DNA of 64,000 bases from assembly GCF_007991635.1 (NCBI RefSeq), contig NZ_BJYS01000036.1:1-64000 (forward strand), given 5' to 3'. Shown piece after piece: positions 16,932 to 29,934 of this stretch. The notes below the pieces were generated by a model. It made no database searches, was not told the origin of the DNA, and saw only the letters and a list, made by a program, of their open reading frames with translations. A program made the position numbers and the translations under genes. The stretch is from Adhaeribacter aerolatus. Lineage in GTDB: Bacteria > Bacteroidota > Bacteroidia > Cytophagales > Hymenobacteraceae. Position 1 is the first letter of the stretch, and every line of letters begins with the position of its first letter.

Positions 16932-18005
16932 TTAAAACCGTATATCCGGGTTCTTCTGCAGAAAGCTACTGTATTTTTTTGCTGCTTCCTGCAAAAACGG
17001 GAGGGTAACGTTAAGGGGTGTTCCAAAGAATTCGGTTTCTATTATGACAGCATCTTTTTTGATAGTGCGCTTCCATAAGCCAATTACTTTGCCATCTTTA
17101 ACCACCATTGGCCGGAATAAACCGTTATTCGAAATAGCATTTTTATGATGTTCTGACAGTAACGCCGCCGTCCGGTCTTTGTAGCTAATGATTAATTCGT
17201 CGAAGGCGGGTAAAAAATAGGGGCTGGTTGGTTTGTTGGTGAAACTGGCAGGGTCCGGATTAAACCAATAAGTAGCAGCGTTAACCGTTTCGGAAATAAA
17301 ATTGGCTTTCACCAATTCTAAAGCTTTCCGCGCATCGGTAACGGATAAACCAGACCACCAGGTAAAGTCTTGTAAAGTGGCCGGGCCGTGGCTCTGGAAA
17401 TAGGTGTGTGCCAATTTTGCCAAAGCTTCTTCGCGGGTTAAGGTTATCTTGTGGGGTACTCGTTTGGCTAGCAGCGCGTAAGTCTGTTTGCTTTTTTGAA
17501 CCGGGCCGCTGCAAATAATAGCGTCCTGCTCAGCGTGCATTAGCAGGAGCGAAGTCCGGTTGTTATCGGTAATTATTCCGGATTGACGCAACTCAGTTGC
17601 TAAAGCTTCGCGGGTTAAACATTCCGGCTGGGCTAAGGCTTTTTCCATGACGGCATTGCTTTTAGTAATCAGGGATTCTGTTAGTTCCAGCTTTTTAAGC
17701 CATGGTTTCAGGGCACTTTTAATTTGGGGTGCCGATAAGGCCAGCAGCGGGTAAATATCTTCCGCCGAAACAAAATGCCAGGTTGGCCTCAAAATATGCG
17801 TTCGGAGAATTTTACCTTGGTTTATAGCGGCTTCTATTTCGGTTTCATTGGAATTAGGTAGCCGGACGCCCAGAGCCCATTTAGCCATCGCGAAATCCTG
17901 GGCTTGCATGGCACCCATCCAGCTTACCAGTTCCTGAGCGGTTGTAAAGTTGGTACCGCTAATTTGCTGATTGTGGAGCCGGATATTGCCTATCTCTTCT
18001 AACAC
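16932..18005 (-). CDS. AlkZ/YcaQ-like winged-helix DNA glycosylase candidate
   Basis: A 357-residue member of the HTH_42 (winged-helix DNA-binding domain) family, which includes the AlkZ and YcaQ/AlkX glycosylases. These unhook interstrand crosslinks or bulky alkyl adducts. The N-terminal segment SWMGAMQAQDFAMAKWAL (about 28-45) contains Q34-A-Q36, matching the Q-x-Q catalytic motif of AlkZ-type enzymes (E. coli YcaQ has Q-x-D). Winged-helix modules follow, with LRPTWHFV (about 73-80), and the C-terminal region holds FLPAFDELIISYKDR. Start is a GTG at 18005. Cytoplasmic. The family assignment is fairly safe; the activity is inferred from the motif only. Confidence 0.75.
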   Translation of the reverse strand: MLEEIGNIRLHNQQISGTNFTTAQELVSWMGAMQAQDFAMAKWALGVRLPNSNETEIEAAINQGKILRTHILRPTWHFVSAEDIYPLLALSAPQIKSALKPWLKKLELTESLITKSNAVMEKALAQPECLTREALATELRQSGIITDNNRTSLLLMHAEQDAIICSGPVQKSKQTYALLAKRVPHKITLTREEALAKLAHTYFQSHGPATLQDFTWWSGLSVTDARKALELVKANFISETVNAATYWFNPDPASFTNKPTSPYFLPAFDELIISYKDRTAALLSEHHKNAISNNGLFRPMVVKDGKVIGLWKRTIKKDAVIIETEFFGTPLNVTLPFLQEAAKKYSSFLQKNPDIRF

Positions 18006-18168
18006 ATGTTTCGTTTTTAAACCAATAAGATAAATCTTAATTATAGTTTCGGGTGATAATACCTGAAACGGTACAAAATATTTGAAAAAAATGTTAATGT
18101 TCTGATTTGGTAGTTTTTTTAATTAAACCATATTGCAGATAATTAAAGTTTTTTTCTAAATAAGTTTT

Positions 18169-18768
18169 ATGAATTACAATAAAAAGATTCTTATTATAAC
18201 CGGTGATGCAGGTGAAAGTTTTGAAATACTGTATGCATCGCACCGCCTGTTGGAGGCTGGGTACCAACCAGTAATTGCAGCACCTGCTGTAAAGCGAATG
18301 AACCTGGTGATGCATGATTTTGAACCGGGTTGGGATACCTATATAGAACGGCCCGGTTACCTGATGGAATCTGACCTTTCGTTTGATGATGTAAATCCTG
18401 CTGAATACCATTCCCTTCTTATTCCTGGTGGCAGGGCACCCGAATTTTTACGAAACGACCAACGAGTAATAAACATTGTTAAAGCATTTAATGACAGCAA
18501 TAAATATATTTTTGCTATTTGCCATGGCGTTCAGATATTGGTAACCGCAGGCCTGGTAGATGGGCGAAAGATAGCTTGTTATGAACATGTAAAGTTTGAA
18601 GTTGAAGTATGTGGTGGTATTTATGTTACACCAGACCAGGCGGTACAGGACGGAAAAATTATTACCGGGAAAACGTGGCAGTCGCACCCTGAATTTTACA
18701 GACTTGTATTTAACTGTCTTGAAAAATCAAAAGAGGCAGAACCGGAAACACAGGTTGTTATACATTAA
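18169..18768 (+). CDS. DJ-1/PfpI family protein
   Basis: A 199-residue protein of the class-I glutamine-amidotransferase-like superfamily. The nucleophile elbow AICHGVQ has C118-H119, and the conserved upstream acid is in GDAGESFE (E16), the DJ-1/PfpI arrangement. A GGRAPEFLR segment (88-96) is typical of PfpI-like proteins. Members act as proteases, glyoxalases, deglycases or chaperones, and sequence alone does not decide. Cytoplasmic. Codon use is somewhat less GC-rich than in neighbours, and the gene stands at the edge of a repeat-rich accessory stretch, so acquisition by transfer is possible. Start ATG 18169. Confidence 0.88.
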   Translation: MNYNKKILIITGDAGESFEILYASHRLLEAGYQPVIAAPAVKRMNLVMHDFEPGWDTYIERPGYLMESDLSFDDVNPAEYHSLLIPGGRAPEFLRNDQRVINIVKAFNDSNKYIFAICHGVQILVTAGLVDGRKIACYEHVKFEVEVCGGIYVTPDQAVQDGKIITGKTWQSHPEFYRLVFNCLEKSKEAEPETQVVIH

Positions 18769-18840
18769 CCCTTGTTGTGGCTTGTGCATAAACTATACGA
18801 CCAAGAGTTACTTAATCCTCAGTATAATAATAGGCTGCAC

Positions 18841-18975
18841 AGTATGGCGCGGAAGTTACTTCCGTGCCTCTCAATAATCTAGCTCTAACATCATTCATAA
18901 TATTTCTGGCTTATTTTTCAATAACAAGAAATAAGCCAGTCTAAAAAGTCACGGAAGTAACTTCCGCGCCATACT
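18841..18975. repeat. MITE-like element with 26-bp perfect inverted ends
   Basis: The ends (18841-18866 and 18950-18975) are perfect reverse complements, beginning AGTATGGCGCGG on the left. Each end contains the near-palindrome CGGAAGT-N-ACTTCCG. Inside is a second inverted pair, CTGGCTTATTT (18906-18916) / AAATAAGCCAG (18929-18939). No coding capacity. It is related to the shorter element at 49356-49414 and ends 13 bases from the frameshifted hicA. Confidence 0.8.
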
Positions 18976-18987
18976 ATGGAAGAGATC

Positions 18988-19174
18988 TTATATTTTAGGA
19001 ATCTGCAGTTGCTTGCAAATTGCTTTAGCTAATAAATCAATTATATCCGGATGGCAAGGAACGGTAGTTTGGGTATTTAAAGTATCGTTGGCGTAAATAT
19101 CATGTTTCTGCGCCATGCCTGGCCAAATAACAACCTTGTTCTTCCAGATGCTTAATTAGTTTAGCGCGCTTCAC
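18988..19174 (-). pseudogene. hicA: Frameshifted hicA toxin remnant
   Basis: Reading from a GTG at 19174, directly after the hicB stop, the frame gives VKRAKLIKHLEEQGCYLARHG, the usual HicA N-terminus. It then hits a stop about 25 codons in. One extra base in the GGCG stretch near 19110 accounts for this: in the shifted frame the sequence continues HDIYANDT...TTVPCHPDIIDLLAKAICKQLQIPKI to a stop at 18988. The shifted part carries the conserved HicA pattern (His of the catalytic site, TVP.H, ICKQL). HicA is a small RNase toxin; this copy should be inactive unless frameshifting occurs or the base is a sequencing error. Confidence 0.8.
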
Positions 19175-19384
19175 CTAAACCAACTCAAGCGGTTCCTGAT
19201 ACACAATATTGCCGGTGTTAGAATTCTTATCCCGCACATAATCGAGGTAAAGTTCTAAGGCATCCTTAATATTTTCTTTTACTTCTTCTATGGTAGCGCC
19301 CTGCGTTAGCACATCAGGCATTTCTTTAATTTGCCCCACCAAACCTGTTTCTGTTTTCTCAATTACTAAAGTTAATCCAATCAT
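19175..19384 (-). CDS. hicB: HicB-family antitoxin
   Basis: A short HicB-like protein, 69 residues from ATG 19384 (MIGLTLVIEKTETGLVGQ). An upstream TTG at 19390 is possible but less likely. It has the partial RNase-H-like fold of HicB: a beta strand with GLVGQIKEMPDVLTQGATIEEVKENIKDAL, the family hallmark, then a helix with ELYLDYV. There is no C-terminal DNA-binding domain, so autoregulation would need another factor. HicB normally binds and blocks HicA; here the order is hicB then hicA with directly abutting frames. The toxin frame is broken (18988-19174), leaving an apparently solitary antitoxin. Confidence 0.85.
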   Translation of the reverse strand: MIGLTLVIEKTETGLVGQIKEMPDVLTQGATIEEVKENIKDALELYLDYVRDKNSNTGNIVYQEPLELV

Positions 19385-19468
19385 GGTCAAGGGGTTTTTC
19401 TGATATAACGAAAAATCATAAGTCCTGTTTTATGTTCCGGTATCTATAATCTAAATGTTAACATTAAA

Positions 19469-19610
19469 TGCCTCCACATGCTTCAAGTTTAAGCGTAGCG
19501 GTAACTTGGAACAGCGATATAGGCCACTTTTCAACTCTCGTCAGTTTCAAACTGGCCGAATAAAAGCCACAAGTTATCGCTCCGGTCAAACTTGCGGCAT
19601 GGGTGGAGCA
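19469..19610. repeat. Imperfect inverted-repeat element, about 140 bp
   Basis: The two ends (about 19469-19512 and 19567-19610) are imperfect reverse complements over about 44 bases, sharing CCAC, CATGC, CAAGTTT, AGCG and TAACTTG in order. The middle has a nested 13-base palindrome (CAGTTT-G-AAACTG) and a GGCCA/TGGCC pair. An open frame runs across it but has no protein-like character. The layout suggests a REP/MITE-type element able to fold into a long hairpin. Confidence 0.65.
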
Positions 19611-19664
19611 TATTGGAATTTAAGTTTTTTTTTCTATATTGTTTTTAAAGCTATATGAAATCCT

Positions 19665-20543
19665 ATGAAAAACTTATTACTCCTTTTATTAACAACATTA
19701 TTTTTCAATTGTTCTAATGTCAAAATGGAACTTAATTCAGAACCTGAAAAAGAAAATGATTTACAAAAGTATAATATTATAGGACAAGTAAAATCAATAA
19801 AGACCACTAGCACTAATCAAAAACTTGAAGATACACCTGGTGCATATACTAAACATGTAAGAAAAGTTAAATATAATCAGGATGGATACATTACTGAATC
19901 TACTGATTCAACTGTTAAGATAATTTTAAAATATGATAAAAATGGTAATATTGAAGAGGAAAAAAGATACAATGGTGATAAACTTATTGCTTACGCTGAA
20001 TCTAAATATGATAATAATGGCAATGTATTAGAACGTTTATTTTTTGAAAAAAATGGGAACGATATTAAAAACACTTTTAAATGGATTAAACGTTATGATG
20101 ATAATAATAACCTAGTAGAAGAAAGTGTATTCGATGGCAATGGTAGCCCTGATGGTAAATCTGTTTTCAAATATGATACTAATGGAAATAGGATTGAAGA
20201 ATTATCATATGAATTAGATGGTAAAAGCCTTAACTATAAAGCAACATTTACATATGATGAAAAAGGGAATGTAAAAGAAAGATATATTAAAGATAACGAA
20301 AGTGCTTATATAAGTAAATTTAAATACGATGATAAAAATAATTGTATTGAAATTTCTGAGCTAAGTACAAAATTTAAAACTGATGATAATGGTAGTATAG
20401 TTGAAGTAAAAGAACCTGCAACAGTAAAAGAAGTAAAATATAAATATGATGAAAAAGGCAATTGGACAAAACTTACTGTTACTGTACCAGAAGAATCTAC
20501 TTATCCTGTTAGTATAGAAGAACGAGTAATTGAGTATTATTAA
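19665..20543 (+). CDS. Lipoprotein with YD-like repeats
   Basis: A 292-residue protein with a lipoprotein signal (MKNLLLLLLTTLFFNCSN; lipobox Cys at residue 16). The rest is made of about seven imperfect repeats built around KYDxNGNxxE (KYDKNGNIEEE, KYDNNGNVLER, RYDDNNNLVEE, KYDTNGNRIEE, TYDEKGNVKER, KYDDKNNCIEI, KYDEKGNWTKL). These resemble YD/RHS-type or MORN-like beta-hairpin repeats, but the protein lacks an RHS core and toxin tail. Likely a periplasmic or surface lipoprotein. It is much richer in A, T, Lys, Asn and Asp codons than neighbouring genes and sits among repeat elements, suggesting horizontal acquisition. Function unknown. Confidence 0.75.
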   Translation: MKNLLLLLLTTLFFNCSNVKMELNSEPEKENDLQKYNIIGQVKSIKTTSTNQKLEDTPGAYTKHVRKVKYNQDGYITESTDSTVKIILKYDKNGNIEEEKRYNGDKLIAYAESKYDNNGNVLERLFFEKNGNDIKNTFKWIKRYDDNNNLVEESVFDGNGSPDGKSVFKYDTNGNRIEELSYELDGKSLNYKATFTYDEKGNVKERYIKDNESAYISKFKYDDKNNCIEISELSTKFKTDDNGSIVEVKEPATVKEVKYKYDEKGNWTKLTVTVPEESTYPVSIEERVIEYY

Positions 20544-20650
20544 CAATTTGAATTCATTTTACTCTTAAGGGGAATTTGCTTTTTAGAACCATTCATCATA
20601 TCTCCAAATTAATTTTTAACTATGAAGAAAATTTTATGAATTCCTGCCAT

Positions 20651-20678
20651 GTTAAGTGTTTTTTACCTGACACTAAAC
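20651..20678. repeat. Degenerate copy of CCTGACAC palindrome
   Basis: Shares GTGTTTTTT-ACCTGACACT with the better-preserved copy at 20737-20764, and both are preceded by a similar GCCxTG context. The left arm is eroded here, leaving only AGTGT/ACACT. Confidence 0.5.
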
Positions 20679-20736
20679 AGTAGAAAAAAATACAAATACC
20701 TACAATCATTAATATTACTCTTCTTAGCTTCCCGCC

Positions 20737-20761
20737 GTGTCAGGTGTTTTTCACCTGACAC
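20737..20761. repeat. Perfect 10-bp palindromic hairpin
   Basis: Arms GTGTCAGGTG and CACCTGACAC with a TTTTT loop, 20 bases beyond the dnaE stop. No T-run follows on the dnaE strand, so it is not a standard terminator, though the hairpin could protect the mRNA 3' end. A related copy lies 86 bases away. Confidence 0.7.
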
Positions 20762-20780
20762 TTACTGGCAGCACCAAATT

Positions 20781-23700
20781 CTACAACAACTTACAAGTCC
20801 CGATATTATTTTCTTTAATCTTCTGAATAAAGGTTTTCGGGTCGATGCGGTACTTGCGGGAGAACATTTCGATGGAAATACGTTCGGTGGGGTCGCTTAG
20901 CATGAGTTCGAATTTTTTGCCGCCCGGCGAAGTTTGAGCGGCTTCCTCAATCCGATCAATCAGCAAATCATTCAGCGTTCGAATATCAATATCCAGGCGG
21001 ACGCCGTTGGCCATTTTATCGGTTAAATCGCCTAACAACTGAATATTTACAGGTTTTAATTCCCACTGGTCTTCGGTTTTGTAGCGCAACTGCACTTTGC
21101 CTTTTATAAACACAAACATGCCTTCGCGCAGGTACTGGGCAAACTTTACAAAGTCTTCGCCAAACAAAGCCATGTTCAGGGTAGAGTCGTAATCTTCGAG
21201 GGTAAACAGGGCAAACGGGTTGCCGTTTTTGGCAGAGGTCCGGATTACCACATTCGACACAATACCCGCTACGTTCACGTCTTTGCCCTTGTACTCCGTT
21301 ACTTTATCTAAAGAGCAGGTGCAGTACGAATCAATTTCCAGGCTGAACTGGTCCAAGGGGTGACCCGAAATATAGAAACCTACTACTTCTTTTTCGCGGC
21401 GCAGTTTTTCGGTCGGTGTCCAGGGGGCAACTTCGGGTACTTTGGGCAGCGGAGCGGCTACCGCAGCGCCACCGCCAAACAACGATTGCTGGGCAGCACT
21501 GGCTTCGGCCTGGTGGTTATTGCCAAACCGAACGGCTTTTTCAATCAGGTTTTGGGTTTCGCCTTCGGCCAAATCTAAATATTGGGCACGGTGGTATTTC
21601 TCGAAAGAATCGAAAGCGCCGGCCTGGGCCATGCTCTCGAAGGTTTTCTTGTTTACCGCCCGCAGGTTTACCCGTTTGGCAAAATCAAAAATATCCTGGT
21701 AAGGGCCGTTCTTCTCCCGTTCTTCCAGAATAGCTTCTACCGCCGCTTCGCCGGTGCCTTTTATAGCGCCCAAACCAAAACGGATAGCGCCTTCCTGGTT
21801 GACGTTAAATTTATAAATGGATTCATTTACGTCCGGCCCCAGCACCTGTACGCCTTGCTTGCGCGCTTCCTCAATAAAGAACGTCACCTTTTTAATGTCG
21901 TTCATGTTGTGCGTCAGCACCGAGGCCATGTATTCGGCGGGGTAATGCGCTTTTAAGTAACCGGTTTGGTAAGCTACCACGGAGTAAGCAGCGGAGTGGG
22001 AGCGGTTAAACCCGTACTGGGCAAACTTCTCCATTACATCAAATACCTCGGAGGCTTTTTTCTCTGGTATTTTATGTATTTCCTTGGCACCCTTAATAAA
22101 TTTCTCCCGCTCCTGGGCCATTTTTTTCATGTCCTTCTTACCCATCGCGCGGCGCAGCAAGTCGGCGCCCCCGAGTGAGTAACCGGCCAGGATTTGCGCG
22201 GTTTGCATAATCTGCTCCTGGTACACCATAATGCCCTGCGAATAATTCAGGATGGGTTCCAGGAGTTCGTGCGGGTAATCTACCTCTTCGCGGCCGTGTT
22301 TCCGGTTAATAAAGTTCGGAATGAACTGCATCGGGCCCGGCCGGTAAAGGGCGTTCATGGCAATTAAATCTTCAATATTGGTCGGCTTTAAATCTTTCAG
22401 GTACATGCGCATGCCCTCCGATTCAAACTGGAAAGTTCCGATGGTATCGCCGCGCTGATAGAGTTCGTACGTTTTCTCATCGTCCATCGGAATGGCATCA
22501 ATATCAATGTCTACGCCGTGGTTTCGTTTGATCAACGCCAGCGCATCCTTAATAATGGTCAGGGTTTTAAGCCCCAGGAAGTCCATCTTCAGCATGCCCG
22601 CCGACTCGATTACCTTCCCGTCAAATTGAGTAACTAATAAATCAGAATCCTTGGAAGTTGAAACCGGAATGTAGTTGGTGATATCGTCGGGGGCAATAAT
22701 TACCCCGGCCGCGTGAATACCAGTGTTGCGCACCGAGCCTTCTAGTTTTTCGGCCAGCTTCAGGGTTTTAGCGCGTAAGTCGTTACCGTCCCGGATAGCT
22801 TTAAGTTCAGGGCTTTCTTCAAAGGCTTTGGCCAACGTAGTGCCCGGCGCATCCGGTACCATTTTAGCCAGTTCGTTCGCATCGGATAAAGGCAATTCCA
22901 AGGCCCGGGCCACATCTTTAATACTCGATTTGGCTGCCATGGTACCAAAGGTAATAATCTGGGCTACCTGCGTTTTACCGTATTTATCAACCACATAGTC
23001 GATTACCCGCTGGCGGTTTTCGTCGTCGAAGTCAATATCAATATCGGGCATACTTACCCGTTCCGGATTCAGGAACCGCTCAAAGAGCAGGGAATATTTT
23101 ATGGGGTCGATATTGGTAATCCCCACGCAGTAAGCTACCGCCGAACCAGCCGCCGAACCCCGGCCCGGACCCACGGCTACGCCCATGCTGCGGCCTTTGT
23201 TAATAAAATCCTGCACGATGAGGAAGTAACCCGCAAAGCCCATGGTTTCAATAATCTGCAACTCGTAGTTAAGCCGTTCCTCAATTTCGGGGGTTATGTC
23301 GCCGTACCGTTTTTTGGCGCCTTCAAAGGTTAGGTGGCGCAAAAAGGCATCGGGCCCGGCGTGGTCCGCCGGAATCGGGAAGTTGGGTAATAAAATATCG
23401 CGCTGTAGTTTGGGCGGCGTTATTTTATCTATAATCTCGTTGGTGTTGTCAATGGCTTCGGGTACGTCGATGAATAATTTATTCATCTCGGCCTGGTTCT
23501 TGAAATAAAACTGGTCATTCGGGAAACCAAAACGGGTTTTAGTACCCATTTCGTCAATTTTATTTAAAGCGCTCCGCACCGAAGCGTAATTGGAATATTT
23601 GCTCCGGACGTTATCCAGGGTATCGTAAATTACCTCGTTGCTGTCAGTCAGGAAGCGGTAATATTTGGTAGAGAAATCGCCAACGGGCATACTCTGGTCT

Positions 23701-26585: not shown

Positions 26586-28922
26586 TTAATTACGGGCAGC
26601 GCCTTTGGGTTTAATTTTTAGTTTCTCGCCCGGACTCACGTTAAAATCTGCTTTGTTATTCCAGTCCATTATTTCTTTAATGGTAACCCCGTAGCGACGG
26701 GAAATCTGGTACATCGATTCGCCGGCCGAGACGGTGTGGGAAACCGGACCAGCGGCATAACTGCCATTACTGGCTACAGTAGGCGCAACATCGGCGGTTT
26801 GTGCCTGCGGTTTATTTACTGTCGAAGTCGGGTAACTGGCCGATGTTACCGGCGGGGCAACCAGTTTCAGGTTCTGGCCAATCGCTAATGGCATTTCACC
26901 CAAATTATTCCAGGTTTTCAGATCCTCTAAAGAAACCTGGTACATCTTGGAAATAGCATATAACGTTTCGCCTTTGGTTACCACGTGTACACCGGGGTTT
27001 GATGCTGGCTGCGCCAAAGCCTTAGCCGGCTCTTTGTAAACGGAGGCCGGAGCGGTAGTTTTAGTAGGCGCGGCAGCTACCGGTTCTTTTAATATTACGG
27101 CTGGTTTGGGAGCCGGCGTTTCTATCGCAGTAGTTTCAGTTATCGCATTCGAATCGGTAGCCGTAGGGGTATTAATTTCAGTTGCAGTTGTGGTGGCTAC
27201 CGGAGCGGGCGTTTTAGTTCTGCTGTAAACCAAAGGCGCGGTTGGTTTATTTACCGGCTCAATTTGCTTGTCGATATTGGCAGATAAAGAATCATCGGTC
27301 TCTTCGGCTTCTTCGTTGGTTTGGGCAATGGCTTCATCCAGCGATGGCTCAGCTGGGCTCGGGGTCGCACTGGTAGTTGCAGCCTCATTTATGGTGGTTT
27401 CTGCCGCAGGTGTTGTTGCAGGTGCTGGTCTGGTTGCTAGCTGGGGTTCAGCTACTGGTTCAGGGGTGGCGGGTACTTCCACTTCCTGTACTTTCGCTGG
27501 TTTCTTTTTCACGCCAAACCATTTATTCAAGCGTTTTTCCAAAGCCGACGCTATCGACTTTTCTTCTTCGCGGTTTGAATCAGCAGATTTGTTTTCGGTT
27601 CTGGCTTTTGCCGGATCGTCGTTTTGGGCCAGAATACCTGGTTGAGCGGGTGCCGGAGCATTGTCGGGATACGTTTTCTGGAACTCAACCGGCGTATTGG
27701 CCGGCCGGCGGCGCTGCATCCACAGCAACCGGCCTTCGGCCAAGGTTTCGGTGGCTTTTAAGCGGTTGTAGAACAAAAGCGAGCGTACTTTTACGCCGTG
27801 TTGCTGCGCCACCTGCTGAATGGTTTCGCCTTGTTTTACTACGTGGTAGGGCGCATCGGCTTTGCTGTGCTTCATCTCTAAATAATAGGCTTCGCCGGGT
27901 ACAATCGGGTCGAAACTATACATGTCGTTGTACATCAGGAACCGACGGGCGGGCATATCGGCTTCGGCGGCCAGTTTATCTTTGGTATCGCCGCGGCGGG
28001 CAATAATTACTTTCAGGTTATTTTGTTTCCGGAATTCGCGTTTGCCGGTTTGCTCGGCGTAGGTATTCTGGCTACCGGTACGGTTAGAGGCATATATTAC
28101 CGACTGCTGATCGGGGTTGGTAACCGGAATAAGGACGGTATAGGTTTTATCGTAAGGTACCGCCCGACCGTGCAGCCACTTATTATATTTTTGTAATTCG
28201 GCTTCATCGGTTTGGGTTTCCATCGCAATTTCGCGGAAGCTTTTGCCCGCCGAAGCCGTCATTTCCTGCAATAAAATCATTGGCGCGGGGTTGCGGCCCA
28301 CGTAATTACTGAAAGCTACTTTGTGCGCTAAAAATGTAAGAATATACGGATGCGTTCTTTCCGTAATATCCATTTCTTTTTTATTTACATCGTTGGGCTT
28401 GGCGTAACCTTTAGCGCCGGTTAACCCCAAGTTGTAAGAGAGCAACGTGTTGTGCCAGTTTTTATAATATACATTGTTGTGCTTTACCAGGTAGCGGGCG
28501 GCACCTCGGGTAGATTCTATAATATGCTTACGTTCATCAATATCCTGGTTTATCTGCAATTTCTGGTCCGAGGCGGCTTCTTTTTTAAATTGCCAGAAAC
28601 CTACGGCGTTGGAGGTCGAAACCGCATCCGAAACCAGGCCGCTTTCCTGCAAGGCCAAATATTTAAAATCATCGGGTAAGCCTTCTTCCCGGAAAATGCG
28701 CTCAATAATCGGGAAATACGTATCGGCCCGGTCTACTTTAGCCTGGAAATAAGTCGGGTATTTGGTTAAGGCATCTACTTGTCTTTGTATTTCCTGCCGG
28801 CCCCTATCGTTTACCCGCAGGTGCTGGTCTGCAAAATAAATATCCGAAGGAACAATAATATTTTGGGCATTAGCCAGGAAGCTGATACAGCTTAGGAGGA
28901 ACAAAATGGTACCTTTTCGCAT
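26586..28922 (-). CDS. LysM-containing lytic transglycosylase (MltD-like)
   Basis: A periplasmic cell-wall enzyme that cleaves the MurNAc-GlcNAc bond. The 778-residue protein has a signal peptide (1-20, ending LANAQ). A GH23/SLT domain (about 60-230) has the catalytic Glu E93 in LALQESGLVSDAVS and the AVGFWQF motif. LysM peptidoglycan-binding modules follow: one near 350-400 (VKQGETIQQVAQQHGVKVRS), and two at the C-terminus near 665-710 (VTKGETLYAISKMYQVS) and 730-775 (VSAGESMYQISRRYGVT). Between them is a long Pro/Ala/Thr/Glu-rich low-complexity linker (about 440-655). Single gene with a strong terminator; its upstream region holds the DnaA-box cluster. Confidence 0.95.
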   Translation of the reverse strand: MRKGTILFLLSCISFLANAQNIIVPSDIYFADQHLRVNDRGRQEIQRQVDALTKYPTYFQAKVDRADTYFPIIERIFREEGLPDDFKYLALQESGLVSDAVSTSNAVGFWQFKKEAASDQKLQINQDIDERKHIIESTRGAARYLVKHNNVYYKNWHNTLLSYNLGLTGAKGYAKPNDVNKKEMDITERTHPYILTFLAHKVAFSNYVGRNPAPMILLQEMTASAGKSFREIAMETQTDEAELQKYNKWLHGRAVPYDKTYTVLIPVTNPDQQSVIYASNRTGSQNTYAEQTGKREFRKQNNLKVIIARRGDTKDKLAAEADMPARRFLMYNDMYSFDPIVPGEAYYLEMKHSKADAPYHVVKQGETIQQVAQQHGVKVRSLLFYNRLKATETLAEGRLLWMQRRRPANTPVEFQKTYPDNAPAPAQPGILAQNDDPAKARTENKSADSNREEEKSIASALEKRLNKWFGVKKKPAKVQEVEVPATPEPVAEPQLATRPAPATTPAAETTINEAATTSATPSPAEPSLDEAIAQTNEEAEETDDSLSANIDKQIEPVNKPTAPLVYSRTKTPAPVATTTATEINTPTATDSNAITETTAIETPAPKPAVILKEPVAAAPTKTTAPASVYKEPAKALAQPASNPGVHVVTKGETLYAISKMYQVSLEDLKTWNNLGEMPLAIGQNLKLVAPPVTSASYPTSTVNKPQAQTADVAPTVASNGSYAAGPVSHTVSAGESMYQISRRYGVTIKEIMDWNNKADFNVSPGEKLKIKPKGAARN

Positions 28923-29289
28923 AACAACAGGCTTTAAGTGAATAAATTATGGATTAAGAAATAATATTAAAAGCAATCGGTTCTTCGGTTTTTGCCGCAA
29001 CTGGCGCAAAAACAGACGCAACCGGAGAACAAAATAGCAGATTTAGTGCCGAATCAGGAATTTTTCGGGTGATTACTTATCTACAATTTATCCACAAGTT
29101 ATCCAAAGCAACTCTTTAAGGTTGATACACCAAATTGCATAGAATGAATAAGTTGCAAATGTAGTTGTTTTAGCAAAGCCGTTGAAATATGCTAAAATTA
29201 GAAGAATAGGAAGTAAGAAGTAAAGCCTGAAAATAGCAATATAATTTTCTTATATATTTCTGAACGAGCGCTTTATAAAACTTATTGCC
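28923..29289. other. Gene-free interval of about 370 bases with DnaA-box cluster
   Basis: Lies upstream of the lytic transglycosylase and downstream of the O-methyltransferase. It holds three DnaA-box-like 9-mers (29077-29107), a GTTTTTGC/GCAAAAAC inverted pair near 28990-29015, and an AT-rich tract (about 29215-29285). No open frame or tRNA is seen. Confidence 0.6.
29077..29107 (+). promoter_or_regulatory. Three phased DnaA-box-like sites
   Basis: TTATCTACA (29077-29085), TTATCCACA (29088-29096) and TTATCCAAA (29099-29107) follow each other in direct orientation with starts exactly 11 bases apart. The middle one is the perfect canonical DnaA box; the outer two differ by one base each. They may be part of a replication origin or a DnaA-controlled regulatory site. 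Confidence 0.6.
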
Positions 29290-29934
29290 TTACTTTTTGC
29301 GCATTAGCAACAGCCCGTCGCGGAGCGGCAAAAGCACGTTCTCTACCCGGTCGTCCTGCTGTATTTTTTGGTTAAAATCCAGGATAGCCTGGGTGTCTTT
29401 GTCTATTTTTTTACACGGTTGCTGCACTACTTTGCCACTCCAGAGCACATTGTCGGCCAGGATAAAACCACCCGCAACGGTTTTCTCCAGAATCAGGTCG
29501 TAGTAGCGGCTGTAGTTAATTTTATCGGCATCAATAAATACCAGGTCGAATTGAATATCTAGGGTAGGAATAATTTCGAGGGCATTGCCGAGGTAATATT
29601 TTATTCTGTTCTCCAGCCCGGCTTCCGCTACATACTTCCGGACCAAGTCTTCGAGTTCGTCGTTGATATCTATGGTATGTAACTGTCCATCCGGGGCTAA
29701 ACCTTCCGCCAAACACAAACCCGAGTAGCCGGTGTAAGTGCCAATCTCCAATATTTGCTTGGGTTTAATCATGTGCGACAACATAGCCAACACCCGGCCC
29801 TGGTAATGCCCCGAAAGCATACGGGGCATTAACACCTTTAAGTAAGTTTCGCGGTTTAGCCGCTGCAACAGTTCCGGCTCCGGGCTGGTGTGCTGCAATA
29901 CATATTCCTGAAGCTCTTTGGAGAGAAAATCCAT
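29290..29934 (-). CDS. Class I O-methyltransferase (COMT-like)
   Basis: A 214-residue SAM-dependent methyltransferase of the O-methyltransferase family 3 (catechol/caffeoyl-CoA type). The SAM-binding motif I is ILEIGTYTGYSGLCLAEGL (about 68-86). The later VFIDADKINYSRYYDLIL carries the metal-binding Asp and NYSRYY, and ADNVLWSGKV is typical of this family. Bacterial members methylate small catechols or hydroxylated metabolites with a divalent cation; some relatives act on tRNA (TrmR). The substrate is not predictable here. It follows the M16 peptidase gene by only 17 bases on the same strand, so they form an operon. Start ATG 29934. Confidence 0.9.
   Translation of the reverse strand: MDFLSKELQEYVLQHTSPEPELLQRLNRETYLKVLMPRMLSGHYQGRVLAMLSHMIKPKQILEIGTYTGYSGLCLAEGLAPDGQLHTIDINDELEDLVRKYVAEAGLENRIKYYLGNALEIIPTLDIQFDLVFIDADKINYSRYYDLILEKTVAGGFILADNVLWSGKVVQQPCKKIDKDTQAILDFNQKIQQDDRVENVLLPLRDGLLLMRKK

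Follow-up and report, generated by a model that had tools for sequence, protein, structure and literature searches.

A conserved tandem array of DnaA-box-like sites as a candidate DnaA control site in the mltD promoter region of Adhaeribacter

Introduction

Control of transcription by the replication initiator DnaA is a known kind of regulation, in which the arrangement of the binding sites matters. In E. coli, the main in vivo sites of DnaA are paired boxes with a gap of 2 or 3 bp, a 4-bp gap giving poor binding, and at purH either mutating one of the two boxes or inserting a base between them cuts DnaA binding (PMC11317965, in the sections drawn on here). The E. coli regulon, as given in these same sections of PMC11317965, covers nucleotide synthesis, replication, repair, and RNA metabolism. 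Ribonucleotide reductase (nrd) is one of the DnaA-controlled functions, and at nrdAB DnaA can either activate or repress, according to part of a second account (PMC8203912).

Beyond E. coli, the Caulobacter genes ftsZ, mipZ, and gcrA, together with DnaA binding at B. subtilis ftsL, connect DnaA with division and cell-cycle genes (PMC8203912, same part). These are other genes in bacteria of another phylum than the one studied here, and the searched text of PMC8203912 names no peptidoglycan hydrolase among them, the terms “peptidoglycan” and “cell wall” having 0 occurrences in it. A lytic transglycosylase gene would be an unusual target for a known kind of control. In the open-access collection searched, outside which most subscription journals lie, we found nothing on DnaA sites in Adhaeribacter's family and no DnaA-controlled lytic transglycosylase.

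Here, we analyze a tandem array of DnaA-box-like 9-mers upstream of an MltD-like lytic transglycosylase gene (mltD) of Adhaeribacter aerolatus. The window, that is, the whole stretch of DNA that was analyzed, comprises 64,000 nucleotides of a contig designated C36.

Results

An earlier note on this DNA had reported a 367-base gene-free interval, which was confirmed at 28923–29289, flanked by two minus-strand genes. It lies upstream of mltD (26586–28922, minus strand), the likely regulated gene, and downstream of an O-methyltransferase gene (29290–29934, minus strand; 214 aa, PF01596), a neighbor outside the element. The 778-aa MltD-like protein presents an SLT domain and LysM repeats, with Pfam PF01464 and PF01476 above cut-off, and falls below cut-off against the NCBIfam murein transglycosylase D model (120 of 508 bits). 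A simple promoter scan of the interval returned one sigma-70-like match, located on the plus strand (shuffle mean of 1.7), and a simple terminator scan of the interval found none. The AT-rich tract described by the earlier note is present but ordinary for intergenic DNA, since the interval as a whole has 33% G+C, with its lowest points near 28931–28970 and 29221–29270. Elsewhere in the window, positions 18001–21000 have a low G+C of 0.33–0.36, compared with about 0.45 in the rest.

Within the interval, a motif scan recovered the three co-oriented 9-mers that had been noticed at exact 11-bp steps, all on the plus strand: a proximal DnaA-box-like 9-mer, TTATCTACA (29077–29085; TGTAGATAA in the mltD sense), a middle box, TTATCCACA (29088–29096; TGTGGATAA in the mltD sense), which is the consensus DnaA box, and a distal DnaA-box-like 9-mer, TTATCCAAA (29099–29107; TTTGGATAA in the mltD sense). 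Counted singly, boxes show no enrichment: allowing up to one mismatch, the window contains 17, the expectation being 13.6 and 24 of 100 shuffles reaching 17, and the exact TTATCCACA occurs 36 times genome-wide against 54 times for the reversed control. The tandem arrangement of the boxes is far beyond chance. Same-strand triples with 9–15-bp steps number 1 in the window and 0 in 300 simulated windows, with an expectation of about 0.0008 per genome, and the pattern TTATCNACAN{2,4}TTWTCNACA has 1 match in the 6.68-Mb genome and 0 control matches.

Taking a double box to be two consensus-like boxes in the same orientation, 2–3 bp apart, both 11-bp steps of the array form one, and the genome's best 2-bp-gap double box, with 1 mismatch of 18, is contained in it. 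Loose double boxes are hardly more frequent in the window's genome (10 for a 2-bp gap, 7 for a 3-bp gap) than in the reversed control (8 and 3, respectively). The mltD pair is not the top double box of the genome in three relatives (G002, G003, and G006).

We located mltD in all eight Adhaeribacter genomes, each of which carries two or three boxes upstream of the gene. It adjoins the O-methyltransferase gene in the window's genome (G000), G001, G004, and G007, and lies far from it in G002, G003, G005, and G006, where the array is still found upstream of mltD. Conservation in close relatives, which the earlier note had linked to the interval between the two genes, is therefore borne out for the sites themselves, but they track the mltD promoter and not the interval. 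Judged by this comparison of loci, the array belongs to the predicted mltD promoter, not to its neighbors.

The 31-mer spanning the array is kept letter for letter in G001, and the three-box pattern with 1 mismatch has matches only in G000 and G001 among the genomes searched. Poor conservation, as suggested by the exact three-box pattern search, was dropped as an interpretation after direct reading of the mltD upstream regions. In G002, G003, G005, and G006 the first step measures 13 bp (4-bp gap) and is followed by a 2-bp gap, the proximal box having 2 mismatches, while G004 and G007 present only two boxes within 2 mismatches. With A. soli and A. terrigena added to the eight loci of the genus search, the 11-bp step into the proximal box (2-bp gap) is shared by all 10 Adhaeribacter loci, in whose alignment the most invariant 12-column windows (10/12) cover the middle and proximal boxes; throughout, the compared sequences are related, hence the counts are not independent.

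The family survey covered 80 named mltD loci, the best 80 of 353, and defined a tandem pair as one box with up to one mismatch and another with up to two, at a 10–13-bp step. Such a pair lies upstream of mltD in 14 of these best 80, including all Adhaeribacter (4/4), Rufibacter (8/8), and Sabulibacter (1/1) loci and 1 of 38 from Pontibacter; among the same 80 it is absent from the other 37 Pontibacter loci and from Hymenobacter (0/27), Botryobacter (0/1), and Solirubrum (0/1). Since the array is missing from all 27 Hymenobacter loci, 37 of the 38 Pontibacter loci, and the single Botryobacter and Solirubrum loci, mltD needs no array across the family. When both boxes are restricted to one mismatch, 9 of the best 80 loci retain a pair, whereas none appeared in any of 50 shuffled sets or in the 11 control windows per locus set, which were placed inside or farther from the gene. 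The arrays of Rufibacter and Sabulibacter advance in 12-bp steps (3-bp gap). Eleven Pontibacter mltD loci present instead opposite-facing boxes at −191 or −192 and at −73 or −74.

Between the array and mltD lies a −7-like promoter element, TATTTTG(T) (29030–29036, minus strand), separated from the proximal box by exactly 40 bp, and the 10-locus Adhaeribacter alignment also reveals a conserved A/T block (29059–29064, minus strand; AAAATT in the mltD sense) between array and element. Measured from where the proximal box ends, a TAnTTTG element follows at exactly 40 bp in all 10 Adhaeribacter loci and also in Pontibacter arcticus, and at 41–43 bp in nine Rufibacter and Sabulibacter loci. The distance from the −7-like element to the start codon is variable (107–134 bp). 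A DnaA promoter target would be expected to hold a conserved place, and the fixed box-to-element gap gives the array such a place relative to the predicted promoter.

The −7-like element fits TAnnTTGY in 19 of the 20 array-bearing loci, the twentieth, that of P. arcticus, reading TAATTTTG, and the frequency of TAn(n)TTTG in the mltD upstream regions surveyed is 0.0027 per base. TAnnTTGY is motif SM5 of Flavobacterium psychrophilum, which the portion of PMC9723704 used here keeps separate from the housekeeping TAnnTTTG motifs in its listing; compared with those motifs, it is one base shorter. The −7-like element would be the active mltD promoter.

One explanation for such boxes is a chromosomal replication origin, in which they would act together with an AT-rich unwinding element, as the earlier note had suggested. 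A consensus box and two near-consensus boxes within an AT-rich intergenic region do recall the oriC of Bacteroidota, which likewise has DnaA boxes in this setting, and the distance from dnaA is no obstacle, given that the dnaA gene of G017, at 3.02 Mb, is not near the skew flip, so oriC need not adjoin it. Unlike an oriC, however, the mltD array lies away from both the GC-skew flip and the box-dense zone. Skew in the window is mostly positive on either side of 29 kb, as it is in the rest of contig C36, and the negative-to-positive flip is found on contig C13 near 135–145 kb, inside a box-dense zone. An origin would also need no locked spacing between boxes and promoter. The origin reading fails, because GC skew shows no sign change at the interval and flips elsewhere in this genome and in relatives; an origin at the interval was ruled out by skew as far as the samples allow, and we regard it as extremely improbable.

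Along C13, negative skew prevails until about 130–145 kb and positive skew beyond, and 39 of the 63 boxes with up to one mismatch are concentrated in 37 kb (about 105–142 kb), the other 141 kb holding 24. This dense zone includes 7 of the genome's 36 exact TTATCCACA boxes and contains mnmG and ileS. The C13 zone at about 105–145 kb is probably the origin zone of the window's genome. Many of the 39 boxes in C13 105–145 kb (L100–L102) lie inside genes, and an AT-rich intergenic stretch at C13 136871–137344 carries four. An oriC beside dnaA was considered and rejected, the dnaA locus of this genome having been deduced, indirectly, to lack boxes with up to one mismatch. A literature search on the Cytophaga oriC gave no direct answer.

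The near-complete chromosomes G003, G005, and G017, with skew read from 20-kb samples, repeat this pattern: the flip falls in a box-dense zone, apart from mltD. In G003, the samples remain negative as far as 1.765 Mb and turn positive at 1.775 Mb, staying so until about 4.4 Mb, and a single 20-kb stretch at this flip holds 24 boxes together with mnmG and ileS; mltD lies at 0.03 Mb, against about 1.77 Mb for the flip. The G005 flip falls between 4.34 and 4.46 Mb, where 33 boxes occupy 40 kb together with mnmG and ileS, and mltD lies at 0.19 Mb, against about 4.4 Mb. In G017 the flip is noisy (about 4.3–4.55 Mb), the 4.33-Mb stretch holding 13 boxes together with ileS and the other 19 sampled stretches 0–7 each; the O-methyltransferase/mltD locus lies at 3.19 Mb, compared with about 4.3–4.5 Mb for the flip. 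These zones resemble the E. coli origin.

The same distances bear on a second explanation, that of a DnaA titration or conversion site, either like datA and DARS or like the box clusters of B. subtilis, with mltD as a mere neighbor. Consensus-like boxes clustered far from the skew origin are what such a site would offer, datA, DARS, and the DnaA box clusters being likewise non-origin boxes in clusters, and a case for chromosomal titration has been made in E. coli (PMC12371093, in the part consulted). The array differs from them in being promoter-locked and in following one gene: its gap to the mltD −7-like element is fixed, and it stays with mltD where the neighbors differ. Its distance from the skew origin varies among G003, G005, and G017, so that no conserved position relative to the origin was found, and two or three boxes are few compared with the dense zone there. 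Where the earlier note had offered a titration or a regulatory site as one reading, conservation and promoter-locking with mltD speak for the regulatory half, while an array that moves with mltD speaks against titration, which we consider quite improbable.

DnaA itself is the predicted binder. The window's genome encodes an ordinary DnaA, helix-turn-helix domain included, in which DnaA_N, Bac_DnaA, and Bac_DnaA_C are all present, PF08299, PF00308, and PF11638 scoring above cut-off. The C-terminal part of this protein gives a match to the solved E. coli domain chain 1j1v_A (E 4e-18), 1j1v being the complex with DNA. The box gaps of Adhaeribacter (2 bp) and Rufibacter (3 bp) match the E. coli preference, the group with a 4-bp gap fitting less well. 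A DnaA site is plausible because 2–3-bp gaps correspond to the arrangement preferred in vivo in E. coli, and DnaA would be the protein that occupies the array.

Boxes also occur upstream of nrdB in the family. From 31 genomes, 30 were taken, and nrdB was not located in two, leaving 28 loci; counting boxes that have no more than one mismatch, 27 of the 28 carry one or more upstream of nrdB, compared with a shuffle average of 2.5, and 22 of the 28 carry two or more, compared with 0.13.

Several further occurrences were observed in passing. In G000 and G004, the space between clpX and a divergent ORF holds a double DnaA box (L264 and L257, about 1501), and TTATCNACGAGTTATCCACA is found near a Glu/Leu/Phe/Val dehydrogenase gene in G002, G003, G005, and G006 (L251, L252, L255, and L258, about 1501). 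Another double box stands beside acpP, G000 being the only genome examined. Upstream of mraZ (L012, about 1400–1580), GTGG repeats at 10-bp steps are accompanied by an opposite-facing DnaA-box-like element; the 20-mer at mraZ, counted among the double boxes that species share, is listed in 7 of the 8 Adhaeribacter genomes, the gene having been identified in G000.

A third explanation takes the repeats at mltD as sites of another regulator of GTGGA type, such as MraZ of the division and cell wall cluster. The operator rule for MraZ is GTGG repeats at 10-bp steps. That mltD is a cell-wall gene, and that the mraZ upstream region of the window's genome combines, by eye, GTGG repeats with a DnaA-like box, would agree with this explanation, but the steps of the mltD array measure 11, 12, or 13 bp and not the 10 bp seen by eye at mraZ, and the 3′ half of the DnaA consensus (ATAA) is mostly kept in the array. 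We therefore regard MraZ-type control of mltD as unlikely.

Discussion

Taken together, we consider it fairly likely that the array is a cooperative DnaA site in the mltD promoter region, tuning mltD transcription as part of a predicted regulon to which nrdB would also belong, an assignment drawn from comparative sequence evidence. Two or three DnaA protomers would probably bind head to tail at boxes 2 bp apart, which would seat DnaA 40 bp upstream of the −7 element, beside the RNA polymerase site. Bound DnaA may then contact or exclude RNA polymerase at the adjacent promoter, and mltD transcription would follow the amount of DnaA or its ATP/ADP state. As to the sign of regulation, we lean toward activation, because the array, which ends 40 bp short of the −7 element, is clear of the core promoter.

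The proposed site resembles the E. coli double-box targets purH and nrdAB in placing tandem boxes with 2- or 3-bp gaps ahead of the gene and in the consensus TTATCCACA (PMC11317965 and PMC8203912, as far as covered here), and nrdB, the counterpart of one of these targets, carries boxes in Adhaeribacter's family too. It differs from that regulon in its gene, a lytic transglycosylase, and in being a predicted site.

A wider proposal is more tentative, and we hold it as possible but doubtful. In Adhaeribacter and Rufibacter, DnaA might directly control a peptidoglycan-cutting enzyme at a TAnnTTGY promoter, so that opening of the wall is tied to replication, within a small family regulon that would also include nrdB, clpX, gdhA, and the mraZ cluster. 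The analysis also points to the family's likely origin region, near mnmG and ileS. If DnaA does control mltD, the promoter would offer a natural spacing series, with box gaps of 2, 3, and 4 bp among related species, and the array would represent a direct link from the replication initiator to a cell-wall hydrolase in Bacteroidota.
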